Positions 30,743-35,987 of a stretch of 47,681 nucleotides of DNA are shown here, one piece after another. Source of the stretch: Candidatus Nomurabacteria bacterium (lineage in GTDB: Bacteria > Patescibacteriota > Saccharimonadia > Saccharimonadales > Saccharimonadaceae); assembly GCA_031266275.1 (NCBI GenBank), contig JAISBI010000013.1:1-47681 (forward strand), in the 5' to 3' direction. The position numbers and the translations under genes are program-made. Every line of letters starts with the position of its first letter. Position 1 is the first letter of the stretch. A model generated the notes under the pieces. The model had not been told where the DNA came from, searched no databases, and saw only the letters and a list, made by a program, of their open reading frames with translations.

Positions 30743-31324
30743 ATGAAATTAGTAGTTTTTCAGGGAAATACCGGATTGAAGTACAGAGATACGCGCCACA
30801 ACGTCGGTTTCATGACGGCGAATTTTTATATCAAAACTTTGGGCCTGCGCTGGAAAAATGACAAAAAGTTCGGTGCCGAAGTCACACGGCTAGACGACGA
30901 CGTGATTTTCGCCAAACCGCAGCTTTATTATAATTTGACCGGTCAAGTAGTGCAAAAGGTCATGAGTTTTTATAAAATCGACATCGACGACCTGCTGGTA
31001 GTTTGTGACGATCTCAATGTCGATTTCGGCCAAGTCCGCGTCCGCGCCAGCGGCAGCGCCGGCGGCAACAACGGCCTGAAGTCCATCATCGACCAAATTG
31101 GCGACGAATTTAAACGCATTCGCATCGGCACTCACAATGACGATACGCGCAACAAATCCAGCGACTCGGCTTTCGTCCTGTCGAAATTCAGCCGCGCCGA
31201 GCAGAAACTATTACCGAACGTCTTCGAAACGACCATAAATTTCATCGAAAGTTTCATGGCCGATAACTTCGCTCACGAAACTATCGACAGTTTGAAACCG
31301 CCCGTAAAATCAAAAAACCACTGA
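30743..31324 (+). CDS. pth: peptidyl-tRNA hydrolase
   Basis: Pth frees peptides from peptidyl-tRNA released from stalled ribosomes. The 193-aa protein has QGNTGLKYRDTRHNVGF with catalytic His19, YNLTG (usually YMNxSG), DDLNVDFG with the catalytic-site Asp, and SAGGNNGLKSI. The last motif is normally GGHNGLKSI, so the substrate-contacting His is Asn109 here; Asn110 is kept. TATACT (30731-30736) ends 6 nt before the ATG: leaderless. The 3' end overlaps the terminator of a minus-strand RNA. Confidence 0.95.
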   Translation: MKLVVFQGNTGLKYRDTRHNVGFMTANFYIKTLGLRWKNDKKFGAEVTRLDDDVIFAKPQLYYNLTGQVVQKVMSFYKIDIDDLLVVCDDLNVDFGQVRVRASGSAGGNNGLKSIIDQIGDEFKRIRIGTHNDDTRNKSSDSAFVLSKFSRAEQKLLPNVFETTINFIESFMADNFAHETIDSLKPPVKSKNH

Positions 31325-31347
31325 AGCAAGGGTGGGCATCGCTTCAG
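31312..31347 (-). terminator. intrinsic terminator of the minus-strand ncRNA
   Basis: Arms GCTTCAG (31341-31347) and CTGAAGC (31321-31327) form a perfect 7-bp stem. On the minus strand TGG and then TTTTTT (31317-31312) follow. On the plus strand the hairpin directly follows the pth stop but lacks a T run. Confidence 0.8.
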
Positions 31348-31586
31348 CGGTTATTTGACCCTTTGACGCACCCTAGAGTCCGCTAAAATCGCGAGACTTT
31401 TCGCGGGCAAAGCGTGACCCACCTCAATTCACGTTTATTGGGGTCCGCCGGTCAAAGGGGTTAGACGAGAGCCAAGTTATATTGCATTCTCTGGAGGGTA
31501 GATAGAAAATGCGCTATGGCTCACGACCTAACATAAGTTAGAATGGGGGTATAAGGTGCGTTAACTAGCCAAATGACTAGCTATAC
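31312..31586 (-). ncRNA. unidentified structured noncoding RNA, about 275 nt
   Basis: A full consensus promoter (31621-31593) and an intrinsic terminator bracket a stretch with no plausible reading frame on the minus strand. Folding elements are plentiful. A long-range 10-bp stem with one bulge pairs ACCCCTTTGAC with GTCAAAGGGT (plus-strand 31357-31366 with 31451-31461). Local hairpins include CGCGA-AAAGTC-TCGCG, an 8-bp stem around 31420-31443, and CTAAC-TTAT-GTTAG. It lies between pth and dprA. tmRNA, SRP RNA and RNase P RNA signatures were looked for and not seen. 6S RNA-like function remains possible. Confidence 0.65.
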
Positions 31587-31592
31587 AATTCC

Positions 31593-31621
31593 ATTATAGC
31601 ACACTTCAATTCAAAAGTCAA
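31593..31621 (-). promoter_or_regulatory. consensus promoter of the ncRNA
   Basis: On the minus strand TTGACT (31621-31616) and TATAAT (31598-31593) are 17 bp apart, with an extended TGC. It is the best promoter in the window and closely resembles the one at 39924-39952. Confidence 0.8.
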
Positions 31622-31728: not shown

Positions 31729-32598
31729 ATGGATAAAATTACCGAAATCAACCCGCGAAACCATATTTGGCTGAAACGTTTGACGAAAATTCCACAGCCA
31801 GTATCGAAGCTTTATTACATGGGCCGACTGCCAGACAAGCAAGCGCCGACCGTCGCCATCATCGGTTCGCGCAAACCGACGGCTTATGGCCGCGAGATAA
31901 CTTTGCGCTTGGCGGAGAAATTAGCGCGGCGCGGTGTGGTGATAGTATCGGGGCTGGCGCTGGGCCACGACGCGCTGGCTCATCGCGGAGCACTGAACGG
32001 CGGCGGCGTAGCGGTGGCGGTGCTGGGCACACCTTTGCCGACCATCACGCCGCGCACCAACCGCGCATTAGGCGAAGAAATCTTGCAATCAGGCGGCGCC
32101 ATCATCAGTGAAATCGACAAAATCGATCAAAATAGCAAAGTTTTTTATAAAACCACCTTTCTGCAACGCAATCGCATTGTGGCCGGACTAGCCGACGTGT
32201 TGATAGTGACCGAAGCCAGCCGCCGCTCCGGCACTATGAGCACCGTGCGCCACGCGCTAGAACAGGGCAAAGAAGTCATGGCCGTACCCGGCAACGTCAC
32301 GTCGCCGCTGTCGGTCGGCTGCAATATACTAATCCAGCAAGGAGCGACGCCAATCTTGTGCGTCGAAGACGTGCTCGAAAAGTTGGGCATCTTTGACGAA
32401 CCGAAACAACTAAAATTACATTTCAAAGACCCGCGCGAACAAAAAATTTATGATTTGATTGCCGGAGGCCTGCGCGACGGCGACGAATTGCAACGCCAAT
32501 CCGGCCTCAGCGCCAGCGAATACTTGACCGCCATCACCATGCTCGAACTCAGCGGCTCAATTCGCGGGCTTGGGGCGAATAATTGGGGGTTGAAGTAG
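31729..32598 (+). CDS. dprA: DNA processing protein DprA/Smf
   Basis: DprA binds incoming single-stranded DNA and loads RecA during natural transformation. The 289-aa protein contains the Rossmann-like core: GSRKPTAYGR near residue 46, VSGLALGHDALAHRGAL, RNRIVAGLADVLIVTEA, SGTMSTVRHALEQGKEVMAVPG, and a C-terminal winged-helix region. TAAAAT (31716-31721) ends 7 nt before the ATG. Saccharibacteria are thought to import nucleotides and DNA, which fits retention of DprA. Confidence 0.95.
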   Translation: MDKITEINPRNHIWLKRLTKIPQPVSKLYYMGRLPDKQAPTVAIIGSRKPTAYGREITLRLAEKLARRGVVIVSGLALGHDALAHRGALNGGGVAVAVLGTPLPTITPRTNRALGEEILQSGGAIISEIDKIDQNSKVFYKTTFLQRNRIVAGLADVLIVTEASRRSGTMSTVRHALEQGKEVMAVPGNVTSPLSVGCNILIQQGATPILCVEDVLEKLGIFDEPKQLKLHFKDPREQKIYDLIAGGLRDGDELQRQSGLSASEYLTAITMLELSGSIRGLGANNWGLK

Positions 32599-32658: not shown

Positions 32659-34200
32659 CTAACCAACCAAACAACGAATAGCAAACCCGTTGGCCCGATC
32701 GCCGTTGTCGGTACCAGGGTAGACGCTGCCGCTGTCGAAGTTCGTGCCATAAGTGACACCCGCTGGGCCGACCGACGAAGACCAATAGGTGCCGTACCGA
32801 CCCTGACCGAAGAGGTTGGAGTAGTAGCCGCCGCTAAGAGCGCCCTGCCAAGCGCCCGTCGACAGCCACAAGTTTTGGGTGTCAGGACTAGATAGGTTGT
32901 GGTCGACGCCAGTGCCACCATTATAGGCTAGGTCAAGTTTGGCAAAGTCGTTGGTTTTATCACGCGGGCCGAATAAGCCAGATGGTAGTTTCCAATTAGC
33001 TGGACAGATGGAGCCATTTGCCGTGCCACTGGTTTGAGTGTTTAGTGCCGTACTAGCAGCTGCTGTGTAGAAGTTGTATAGGTAGCCACATTTGGTTTTA
33101 CTGTTAGTGTTATAGGACAGTCCACTATTGCCGCTATCTCCGATGTTGTTTTGGCATTCGTTGGTGGTATTGGGGTTAGCTTGACGCCAAGCGTTGTATT
33201 CGTCATGGTCGGTGCCAGTAGCCGATGAGCCTATTTTGGTTAGACGGCCGGATGTGACGAATTTGCCAGTGGTGTCACGGGTACCAGAAGTGAAGTTATC
33301 CCACGCGAAGTCTACGGTTACTTCGGTACCGGTTTTTAGATTAGTGGTGGCTGGCGTTAGAGTCATGCCTTGCTCCAGCTCTAGCTTGAGATTATCAATC
33401 ATCCAACAATTATTATCAGCCAACTTCCTCATTCGGTATTCTTGGTTGTCTCTGGCGTCTCTTAATGTGATGGTTTCGTTTAGTGTTAATGCATCACATT
33501 TAGCCTTAGTCATTGATTGCATGGTGGTTGAGGGGTTGTCTACTACATCATAGGTGATGTTGTATTTATAGGTGCCTGATTGTATGTCTTGTGGTACGGT
33601 GACTGCTATGGTATGGTCTTGGGTGCTGGGGCTGGTGTTTGTCTCATTAGTATAGATGTTTATGCTGTTTTCGGTTAGTTTTTCGTTGTTGAGGGTGAGG
33701 GTGATGTTGTTGGTGGTGTCACTAGCTGGAGTTTGGTTTAGTTTAGCAGAGAGGGTATAGCCGCTGTAGTTGTCGGTGGTGACTGTGGTGGTGGAGGTGG
33801 CGGTTTTAGTGAGGGGTTTAGTTTGGTTAGTTGGGCTATTATTACTGTCTTTGGGCTTATAGATGTTTATGTCAATGGCGGGGGTAACAGATGAGAGATT
33901 AGAAGTGGCTTGGGTGTTGAGAGGGTTAAGGTTGTTAGAGAGAATGGCTATGGTTGGGATGGTTAATAGGGGGAGTAGCATGAGGGATATGGTGGTGGCT
34001 TTATGGATAGTTCTTTTGGTCGTGGTTTTATTATTACGAGTAAGGATACGGACAGCGATGAGCAGTAGCAATGCGAAACTGAGTATCGATAGGGCCACGA
34101 CTGTCGGTGAGAGAAAGCCTGGGCTGGTTATCCCGCCAGCATTAGGGACGCTCGGGGTGTTAACTACGTTAATATTGAGGGTTTGAGTAAGGTTCTGCAT
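32659..34200 (-). CDS. FISUMP-domain surface protein (tandem copy B)
   Basis: The 513-aa protein has two N-terminal membrane segments (about 32-50 and 71-87) joined by a basic loop. A Thr/Asn-rich beta module follows (TTDNYSGYTLSAKLNQ...TIAVTVPQDIQSGTYKYNITYD), then a FISUMP domain: EYRMRKLADNNCWMIDNLKLEL, CGYLYNFYTAAAS, ICPANWKLPSG, YWSSSV and GFAIRCLVG. AAAGGAG precedes the ATG. It is a paralogue of the next upstream gene, with the N-terminal half well conserved and the C-terminal segment variable. It is likely exported and anchored, with the FISUMP domain outside. Confidence 0.87.
   Translation of the reverse strand: MQNLTQTLNINVVNTPSVPNAGGITSPGFLSPTVVALSILSFALLLLIAVRILTRNNKTTTKRTIHKATTISLMLLPLLTIPTIAILSNNLNPLNTQATSNLSSVTPAIDINIYKPKDSNNSPTNQTKPLTKTATSTTTVTTDNYSGYTLSAKLNQTPASDTTNNITLTLNNEKLTENSINIYTNETNTSPSTQDHTIAVTVPQDIQSGTYKYNITYDVVDNPSTTMQSMTKAKCDALTLNETITLRDARDNQEYRMRKLADNNCWMIDNLKLELEQGMTLTPATTNLKTGTEVTVDFAWDNFTSGTRDTTGKFVTSGRLTKIGSSATGTDHDEYNAWRQANPNTTNECQNNIGDSGNSGLSYNTNSKTKCGYLYNFYTAAASTALNTQTSGTANGSICPANWKLPSGLFGPRDKTNDFAKLDLAYNGGTGVDHNLSSPDTQNLWLSTGAWQGALSGGYYSNLFGQGRYGTYWSSSVGPAGVTYGTNFDSGSVYPGTDNGDRANGFAIRCLVG
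32662..32840 (-). other. diversity-generating-type variable region candidate (FISUMP B)
   Basis: This is the last 60 codons. Against copy A, the stretch from GGYYS to WSSSV is nearly identical except for codons AAC/GGA, TTC/GGC, CGG/TCG and ACC/TTC. Further on, GCC-AAC replaces AGC-TAC. Most variable codons end in C. Confidence 0.45.
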
Positions 34201-34370
34201 ATTAGTTCTCCTTTTTTGTCTAACTGTATACCGGCATATTTTTAATATTAATATTTGGTAGGGTTAGGTCTTTGGGGGAAATTTCTGCTTATGTTTATAA
34301 TTTTAACATGAAGTTTTTGGAAATGCAAGGGTTTGGGTTGTGGACCCATCGTTCGCTAGCGCCTGAATTT

Positions 34371-34424
34371 GTCATTCGCCGGCCGTCTCCCTCTAGTCAT
34401 TCGCCGATTCTGATTGGCAAATCT
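34371..34424 (+). repeat. GTCATTCGCC repeat pair between the FISUMP genes
   Basis: GTCATTCGCCGG (34371-34382) and a second unit GTCATTCGC plus ATTGGCAAATCTAG (34396-34424) lie 7-60 bp beyond the 3' end of copy A and upstream of copy B. The second matches the unit at 21803-21832. Confidence 0.65.
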
Positions 34425-34430
34425 AGTAGA

Positions 34431-35987
34431 TTAATCGACTAAACAACGAACCGCACGCCCGTAGCTCCGATCGTCGTCGCCCGTACCTGAGTTGACGTAG
34501 TTACTAACGAAAAACGTGACGTAGGCGTAGTCCACCGAGTAGACCGAAGAAGACCAATAGAAGCCGTACGAACCCTGACCGCCGAGTCCTGAATAGTAGC
34601 CACCACTAAAAGCGCCCTGCCAAGCGCCTGCTGGCAGCCATAGCATCTGAGTATCAGGGCTGGCAAGGTTGTGGCCAACGCCTGTGCCGCCTGGTTGATA
34701 TGCTAGGTCAAGTTTTCCAAAGTCGCCATTGGCACTTTGGCCACTTGGTAGCTTCCAGCCACTTGGGCAGACGGATTGTTGGGCTATGTAGCCAAGTCCT
34801 TTACCACTACTGTATTCAACTTGGGCGGCCGAGCCAGCGGTAGCGGTGTAGAAGTTATAGAGGTAGCCACAGCCGGTTTTAGAGTTGGTGTTGTAGGATA
34901 CGTTACCATCGTTGAAATCGGTGCTGGTATTATTTATACAATTGGTGCTACCTGACATGACTGGGTCATTGGGGTCGTTTTGGCGCCAAGCATCATAGTT
35001 AGGAGAGGTTGAGGAAATGCTGCCATCGCGGGTATTATAGCCACTGGTGGTGAAGTTACCGGTCATACCGGCGAGGGAGGTTCCGGCACTGGTGCCGTCT
35101 TGAGTGAAGTAGATGGTTTTGCTGGTGTCAACATTAGTATTAGCTGGAGTTAAGATCATGCCGTCTGTTAGCTCTAGTTTGAGGTTATCTAGCATCCATG
35201 TATTGTTGTCGGCTAGTTTACCTATGCAGTATTCTTGGTTGTTACGAGTGTCTGTGGCGATTCCGGTGTCGCCTATGCTCCAGCTGGTCGTATTGAGGTT
35301 TTGCATGTTACCGACATTGCCTTTGAAAGTGCTGCCGGAGGCGCAGGCGATAGAGTTCTCTGTTATATCATAGATAATATTGTAGACATATGTGCCGATA
35401 GCTATGTCTGACGGCACCGTGACCGCTAGGGTGTGGTCATATATGCTAGGGCTGGTACCTGTGTCATCGGCGTAAATATTTACACTGTTGGTAGTTAATA
35501 TTTCATCGTTCAGGGTGATGGTTATGTTGTCAGTGGGGTTTTGGTTTAATTTGGCGGACAAGGTATAGCCAGTGGCATTATTGGTAGTAACTATAGTAGT
35601 GCTATTGACTGTTTTAGTAGCAGGACCAGTCATGGTGTCTTTGTAAATATTCACATCGACAGTAGGGGTAACGGACGAGAGGTTAGAAGTGGCTAGAGTG
35701 TCAGGAGCGTTGTTGAAAAGAATGGTTAGGGTTGACACGGTTAGCAACGGAAGTAAAATGAGCGATATGGTGGTGATTCTATGGATAGTTTTTTTGGCGG
35801 TAGTTTTACCATTACGAGCCAGTAGATGAGCGGCGATGAATAATATAGAGACAAGACTAAGCGCGATAAGAGCTATCACGATAGGCGAGAGGAAAAACTG
35901 AGTCTGAACTCCGATCATTCCTCCAGTGTCAGGAACGCTTGGAGTGTTGAGGATGTTGATATTGAAAGTTTGGGGAAGGGTTTGCAT
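34431..35987 (-). CDS. FISUMP-domain surface protein (tandem copy A)
   Basis: The 518-aa protein repeats the plan of copy B: MQTLPQTFNINI start, two membrane segments (about 33-55 and 70-88), a beta module with TTNNATGYTLSAKLNQ, and a FISUMP domain (EYCIGKLADNNTWMLDNLK, CGYLYNFYTATAG, VCPSGWKLPSG, YWSSSVYSV, GRAVRCLVD). AAAGGAG precedes the ATG. The linker ASGSTFKGNVGNMQNLN is shared with the 21759 gene, suggesting module exchange. An AGTAGT-TT-ACTACT palindrome (36030-36043) lies in its upstream region, shared with divergent topA. Confidence 0.87.
   Translation of the reverse strand: MQTLPQTFNINILNTPSVPDTGGMIGVQTQFFLSPIVIALIALSLVSILFIAAHLLARNGKTTAKKTIHRITTISLILLPLLTVSTLTILFNNAPDTLATSNLSSVTPTVDVNIYKDTMTGPATKTVNSTTIVTTNNATGYTLSAKLNQNPTDNITITLNDEILTTNSVNIYADDTGTSPSIYDHTLAVTVPSDIAIGTYVYNIIYDITENSIACASGSTFKGNVGNMQNLNTTSWSIGDTGIATDTRNNQEYCIGKLADNNTWMLDNLKLELTDGMILTPANTNVDTSKTIYFTQDGTSAGTSLAGMTGNFTTSGYNTRDGSISSTSPNYDAWRQNDPNDPVMSGSTNCINNTSTDFNDGNVSYNTNSKTGCGYLYNFYTATAGSAAQVEYSSGKGLGYIAQQSVCPSGWKLPSGQSANGDFGKLDLAYQPGGTGVGHNLASPDTQMLWLPAGAWQGAFSGGYYSGLGGQGSYGFYWSSSVYSVDYAYVTFFVSNYVNSGTGDDDRSYGRAVRCLVD
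34434..34615 (-). other. diversity-generating-type variable region candidate (FISUMP A)
   Basis: The last 60 codons are rich in NNC codons at exposed-type positions (GTC TAC, GAC TAC GCC TAC GTC, AAC TAC GTC AAC, AGC TAC), matching different NNC codons at the aligned places in copies B and C. Confidence 0.45.

Follow-up and report, generated by a model that had tools for sequence, protein, structure and literature searches.

An apparently new structured RNA class beside dprA in Saccharimonadia, with an arm loop resembling the 16S rRNA 3′ tail

What is transcribed between pth and dprA in the window (the whole 47,681-nt stretch that was analyzed), and how far beyond this genome does it extend? 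An earlier note on this DNA had described a strongly bounded RNA of about 275 nt in the interval and considered a new or very diverged housekeeping RNA plausible. Comparison with relatives, Rfam models and viral sequences makes the existence of a new, class-wide structured RNA class close to certain; we refer to it by the working name dprA-divergent RNA. Three results go beyond that note, namely the class-wide extent of the RNA, a loop resembling the 3′ tail of 16S rRNA, and shortened copies in phages.

A structured RNA gene on the minus strand

The RNA is encoded on the minus strand, whereas the title of the earlier note gave no strand (Table 1). Its promoter, previously called near-perfect, matches 11 of 12 positions with a 17-nt spacer and an extended TG on this strand, and ranks best among the promoter-like sites of a 2-kb region (10 found, 2.6 expected); transcription would be expected to start near 31586. 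The hairpin with T6 that had been read as a terminator was recovered as well, and was missed by a simple scan because its loop is 13 nt long while the scan allows loops of up to 8 only. Folding of the 283-nt stretch gave -106.5 kcal/mol, compared with -71.8 ± 4.7 kcal/mol in shuffles (z = -7.4). The claim that the interval lacks coding potential also held, since no ORF of at least 50 aa lies inside the RNA and its relatives differ by insertions of many lengths. A short ORF inside the RNA (AUGUUAGGU...) was considered and dropped, as it is absent in distant families. The source genome (792 kb, 42 contigs) contains one copy. Between dprA and topA the window has an insertion (32659-35987, minus) that encodes two large, tandem-like surface proteins, of which one matches Fib_succ_major weakly; dprA and topA adjoin each other in many relatives.

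Table 1 Features of the dprA-divergent RNA and its neighbors in window coordinates.
Feature	Positions	Strand	Basis
-35 box TTGACT	31616..31621	minus	11/12 promoter match; TTGAC box at same place in relatives
-10 box TATAAT with extended TG	31593..31598	minus	11/12 promoter match; 17-nt spacer to TTGACT
Whole RNA, about 275 nt	31311..31586	minus	promoter; terminator; fold z = -7.4; conservation in relatives
5′ hairpin, sequence variable, stem kept in relatives	31562..31585	minus	fold z = -4.2; alignment
Element A1 CGCACCUUAUACCCCC, single stranded	31545..31560	minus	conservation; ACCUUAUACCCC retained in phage copies
Local hairpin CUAAC-UUAU-GUUAG, can expand, missing from one phage copy	31528..31541	minus	
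Arm P3, 5′ strand (GUUAG + GUCGUGAGCC)	31518..31532	minus	covariation
Apical hairpin H4 (stem 31512-31504/31492-31484, loop 31503-31493)	31484..31512	minus	arm z = -4.4
Arm-tip loop AUCUACCCUCC, universal element ACC(C)UCC, 16S rRNA 3′ tail-like	31493..31503	minus	
Arm P3, 3′ strand (GGCUCUCGUCUAAC)	31460..31473	minus	covariation
Pseudoknot 5′ strand CCCUUUGAC	31451..31459	minus	covariation with GUCAAAGGG
Core hairpin P5 (GGCGGACC ... GAGGUGGGUCACGC), bears GGUGGG	31412..31449	minus	covariation
Extra hairpin, lineage-specific, absent from most relatives	31380..31407	minus	
Pseudoknot 3′ strand GUCAAAGGG	31359..31367	minus	covariation with CCCUUUGAC
Intrinsic terminator, stem 31351-31341/31327-31317, invariant 13-nt loop GAUGCCCACCCUU, U6 (T6 at 31317-31312)	31312..31351	minus	covariation; z = -7.0
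pth, convergent neighbor	30743..31324	plus	Pfam PF01195; 3′ end overlaps RNA terminator in window
dprA, divergent neighbor, constant landmark of locus	31729..32598	plus	Pfam PF02481

Compensatory changes were found in the stems when relatives were compared. In alignments whose rows were partly chosen by pattern, and in which related sequences share changes, double changes occurred in all 10 pairs of the terminator stem (94% of cells paired; covariation 0.80 versus 0.26 after shuffling and at most 0.21 when slid), in 7 of the 9 pairs of the pseudoknot (100% of cells paired, 31 distinct rows) and in 10 of the 15 pairs of arm P3 (97.7% of cells paired). The outer part of P3, GUUAG/CUAAC, varied little within the covariation set; by eye, it is swapped for UUGC/GCAA in genus g2 and for UUAAG/CUUA in locus L247. 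The 10-bp long-range stem ACGCACCUUA/UAGGGUGCGU, which the earlier note had proposed to close the molecule, fared differently: all of its pairs form in the window, yet of 123 relatives just 10 can form 9 or more of the 10; 102 of the 123 have G·G at the third pair, and convincing compensatory changes were not seen. It was therefore discarded as the main long-range pairing, and the conserved long-range pairings are the pseudoknot and the P3 arm. In many genera (e.g., L164, L166 and L170), a longer domain that contains the conserved motif GACUAUNCAGUAGUG takes the place of the core hairpin.

With Rfam covariance models, neither the window nor distant relatives matched any family; weak matches to psRNA14, mir-1420, sR14 and BjrC68 lay far under the gathering scores, and a tRNA and tmRNA search inside the RNA was negative. 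The previously noted lack of tmRNA, SRP and RNase P signatures was thereby borne out, as both the tmRNA (RF00023, C23:19009-19411) and the RNase P RNA (RF00010, C23:14178-14481, 245.7 bits) of the source genome lie on another contig and neither model matched the window. SRP RNA models (RF00169, RF01854) matched neither the window nor 11 genomes, a search in which the Bacillus subtilis control was also missed. With no SRP RNA found elsewhere, SRP RNA was seriously considered as the identity of the dprA-divergent RNA, and this was dropped once Ffh and FtsY also proved absent: the SRP54 GTPase fell under the cut-off in 11 of 11 genomes (the source genome and ten relatives; controls positive in 14 of 14), and the SRP domain IV motif was not found in the complete genome G028. 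The SRP pathway thus seems to be missing from the source genome and these ten relatives. A literature search found no published description of the RNA, and an earlier anonymous listing is possible. Within the limits of that search, the RNA class appears to be new. One copy per genome, presence in nearly all of the order and compensatory changes in the stems bear out the housekeeping RNA that the earlier note envisaged, and neither outcome that the note had named as a refutation, stems that relatives do not share or a clear match to a known family, was observed.

Distribution across the class and shortened phage copies

Within the family, plain blastn recovered the RNA from 165 of 198 genomes, covering 51 of 61 genera. 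R1, a covariance model of the 3′ part of the RNA only, recovered it from 324 of the 393 class genomes, with a single copy in almost all of them. At the level of the phylum R1 found it in 31 of 380 genomes, all but one from its own order, a count that under-reports because R1 models the terminator loop, which other orders are without. Restriction of the RNA to the order Saccharimonadales, as read from this count, was withdrawn when dprA loci revealed it in other orders. In the dprA loci of 30 such genomes, picked by protein family alone, nearly all that were long enough presented a divergent upstream strand with a TTGAC promoter, an ACCCUCC-tipped arm and a terminator, and these RNAs also carry a CCCUU/AAGGG-type pairing. 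Judged by these loci, the RNA is class-wide in Saccharimonadia. In named collections its relatives were Saccharibacteria, save unclassified or evidently misbinned records; one record filed as Chloroflexi (L097) bears a Saccharibacteria RNA and dprA and is probably misbinned.

The gene order der-pth-[RNA]-dprA-topA is kept across relatives, and dprA is divergent from and adjoins the RNA in 97 of 111 loci. Where dprA has been lost (L176, L222, L225, L226, L248, L250 and L253) the RNA remains beside topA; its position is therefore ancestral and its function is not tied to dprA. The distance to pth varies, reaching several kb in relatives.

Phage contigs of IMG/VR provided a second line of comparison. 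Six of these (L315, L317, L318, L319, L320 and L321) bear a version of the RNA shortened to ~100 nt, consisting of ACCUUAUACCCCC, usually a small hairpin, and then an arm with the UACCCUCC loop (ACCCUCC). In most copies the base of the arm is itself a terminator stem running into U, and a 7-nt bulge is present on the 3′ side of the arm in 5 of the 6. The outer stems are unrelated in sequence and fully paired, with double changes in 7 of 8 pairs. Neighboring genes encode endolysins, virion proteins, Erf, RecT-like proteins, exonuclease VIII and HNH proteins (L318 has too little DNA to tell), and the shortened form was absent from the cellular loci examined. A further phage contig (L316) carries a full-length-type copy together with a DNA methylase and a PDDEXK/FtsK-like protein. 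Two other viral pattern matches (L322 and L323) were attributed to chance, having neither A1 nor a matching fold. Since the phage miniatures keep A1 and the arm loop, these two elements of the 5′ half are the probable working parts of an RNA that would act in trans, and the phage copies are the best evidence for this.

Conserved single-stranded elements and the 16S rRNA tail

Element A1 was invariant in 99 of 99 sequences, partly owing to the search pattern, and the region around it (query 79-115) retained 97-100% identity across many genera. The terminator loop hardly changes within the order and can pair with GGUGGG inside the RNA, through at least six consecutive pairs (G-U allowed) in 98% of sequences versus 32% of shuffles; its mean internal pairing was 7.75, compared with 5.14 in shuffles. 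GGUGGG is located either just 5′ of the pseudoknot 3′ strand or in the core hairpin: of 32 sequences that lack it at the first place, 22 have a copy at the second and 10 a shifted six-base complement. These values, although shared ancestry weakens the count, suggest that the terminator loop docks internally onto GGUGGG. The ACC(C)UCC loop at the tip of the arm is predicted to be exposed, its mean probability of being unpaired reaching 0.97 across 23 RNAs from other orders and 0.94 across 133 from its own order, and a search for an internal partner gave none above chance. It is the one sequence common to the whole class, which makes a partner outside the RNA likely.

A likeness between this loop and the 3′ tail of 16S rRNA (the anti-Shine-Dalgarno, or anti-SD, and Era site) was noticed after the fact. 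Beyond the shared ACC(C)UCC, the loop of genus g2, AUUACCUCC, is identical to nine bases of the 16S tail of its relatives. In the order of the source genome the 16S 3′ end is GGAUUACCUCC, with one odd exception, and other orders have mostly the usual GGAUCACCUCC. In Saccharimonadales (e.g., G000:C9:845-890 and G028) the tail reads GAUUACCUCC, as opposed to the nearly universal GAUCACCUCC; GATTACC tails are rare among bacteria (203 of 20,495; PMC6107228). At the position preceding ACC, the RNA loop has U in every parsed RNA of the own order, whose 16S tails are UUACC apart from one odd exception, and likewise in families f31 and f32; it has C in f30, f33, f34, f35, f36, f38, f39 and f40. Among the 14 genomes of other orders for which loop and tail are both known, 13 have the same base here as in their own 16S tail (G212 disagrees), although the dprA tree allows few independent changes, possibly one or two. 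Against a simple identity, the RNA presents the sequence in a hairpin loop, the loop has one C more than 16S (ACCCUCC vs ACCUCC) in nearly all lineages outside g2, and the RNA is otherwise not an rRNA fragment. A1 and the terminator loop match the rrn region over 8-10 nt, a likeness to rRNA that was not persuasive. For the arm loop, mimicry of the 16S tail is the leading inference.

Candidate functions

The best explanation, to which we give a probability of about 40%, is that the dprA-divergent RNA is a trans-acting, single-copy RNA that mimics the 16S tail and modulates translation initiation. Modulation of initiation by such mimicry would be the most likely function because the anti-SD-like loop is exposed and has no internal partner, and because phages keep miniatures of the RNA. 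Docking of the terminator loop UGCCCACCC onto GGUGGG would yield a compact particle, with the arm-tip loop held out toward an outside partner. The loop could then serve as a decoy or stand-in for the 16S tail, competing either for mRNA Shine-Dalgarno (SD) sequences or for a tail-reading factor such as Era. In this way the RNA would tune SD-led translation in organisms where leaderless mRNAs are also many, and the shortened form expressed by phages would serve to occupy that partner or to imitate it. A bolder version, tentative and with the odds against it, has this class-defining RNA stand in for the anti-SD tail and adjust how far translation is SD-led or leaderless, with phages having adopted a stripped two-element copy.

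In the complete genome G028, an SD-like motif precedes 282 of 867 starts and a -10 box in the leaderless position 182, with both at 8. A TATAAT-like box lies at -15 to -10 of around one fifth of the predicted starts, and these hardly overlap with the SD starts. As the two kinds of start are nearly exclusive, an SD-directed RNA would act on a distinct class of genes.

The same two elements could instead belong to an ordinary base-pairing sRNA, whose C-rich A1 and arm loop pair with G-rich mRNA leaders and whose likeness to the 16S tail reflects merely a common need to pair with SD-like sequence. This reading, which we consider doubtful, has a precedent in the actinobacterial 6C RNA or B11, which targets ribosome binding sites by pairing through C-rich loops (PMC10470900). 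It is consistent with the retention by phages of only the two C-rich single strands, and with two sites in G028: 12 nt complementary to the loop extend across the start region of an rseP-like gene, and 11 nt complementary to A1 directly precede the start of another gene. However, sites complementary to A1 or the loop were about as numerous in G028 as expected, their enrichment at start codons was not clearly above that of other G5 runs or of G-richness generally, and the invariance of 13 + 8 nt over so wide a group exceeds that usual for seed pairing with changing targets. A sequence near 209165 of G028:C1 (minus), UAUACCCCCUA, is identical to 11 nt of A1 and lies in the leader of an 88-aa ORF just before AGGAGG. 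6C RNA and B11 share with the dprA-divergent RNA unpaired C-run loops and lineage-wide conservation; they differ in having two simple C loops, and their covariance models gave no match to the Saccharibacteria RNA at any threshold used. To our knowledge, they have no pseudoknot and no likeness to the 16S tail has been recorded for them.

Alternatively, the RNA may form the core of a stable RNP in which a protein, for example a KH-domain or ribosome-assembly protein such as Era, binds both C-rich elements and is titrated by the phage RNA; we regard this as unlikely. Within the 16S tail, Era recognizes GAUCA and CCUCC (target GAUCACCUCC; PMC10582724), and some loops of other orders read AAUCACCCUCC. 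The fixed geometry of the phage copies, with the 7-nt 3′-side bulge in 5 of 6 and stems otherwise unrelated, would also suit a protein ligand. Such a partner would nevertheless be hypothetical, and most loops lack two bases of the Era site, its G and its first A. That phages carry the shortened form in six cases and a full-length type in one might further be taken as a sign of a phage-host contest, for instance an RNA that is part of a defense system and is blocked by the phage short RNAs. This is improbable, given that defense systems spread patchily whereas the RNA occupies a fixed housekeeping locus, as one copy, in nearly all genomes, with the same set of housekeeping genes around it throughout.

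Descent from a known RNA is more improbable still. A diverged tmRNA, RNase P, SRP or 6S RNA would account for the similar length and, for SRP, for the failure to find its RNA elsewhere, but tmRNA and RNase P RNA sit elsewhere, the SRP GTPases are absent from the Saccharimonadaceae genomes tested, Rfam matches were lacking even in distant relatives, and the pseudoknotted form is unlike 6S. Like the RNA described here, 6S RNA is widespread, single-copy and of housekeeping type, at roughly 200 nt; it is a long bubble hairpin imitating a promoter, whereas the pairing supported here comprises an arm and a pseudoknot, and the 6S model (RF00013) matched neither the window nor relatives. RepG of Helicobacter likewise has a C-rich terminator loop, which it uses for pairing, while the Saccharibacteria terminator loop most likely pairs inside its own RNA. 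Finally, a cis element (a leader, antisense or by-product of a divergent promoter serving dprA or pth) would fit the position beside dprA in most loci and the overlap with the end of pth in the window, but it is already refuted by transcription away from dprA with an own terminator and no constant downstream gene, by retention of the RNA next to topA without dprA, by the several kb that can separate it from pth, and by unlinked phage copies.

Leaving aside the universal RNAs, retention by almost all members of one bacterial class is uncommon for an RNA. The presence of such an RNA throughout a class of parasitic-type bacteria of the candidate phyla radiation with tiny genomes, apparently without SRP, hints at a core process that has gone unrecognized. 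The phage miniatures point to which 100 nt do the work and offer a ready-made minimal construct. Cultured, genetically tractable Saccharibacteria exist (PMC10633639), so that expression, essentiality and partners of the RNA are directly testable in these organisms.
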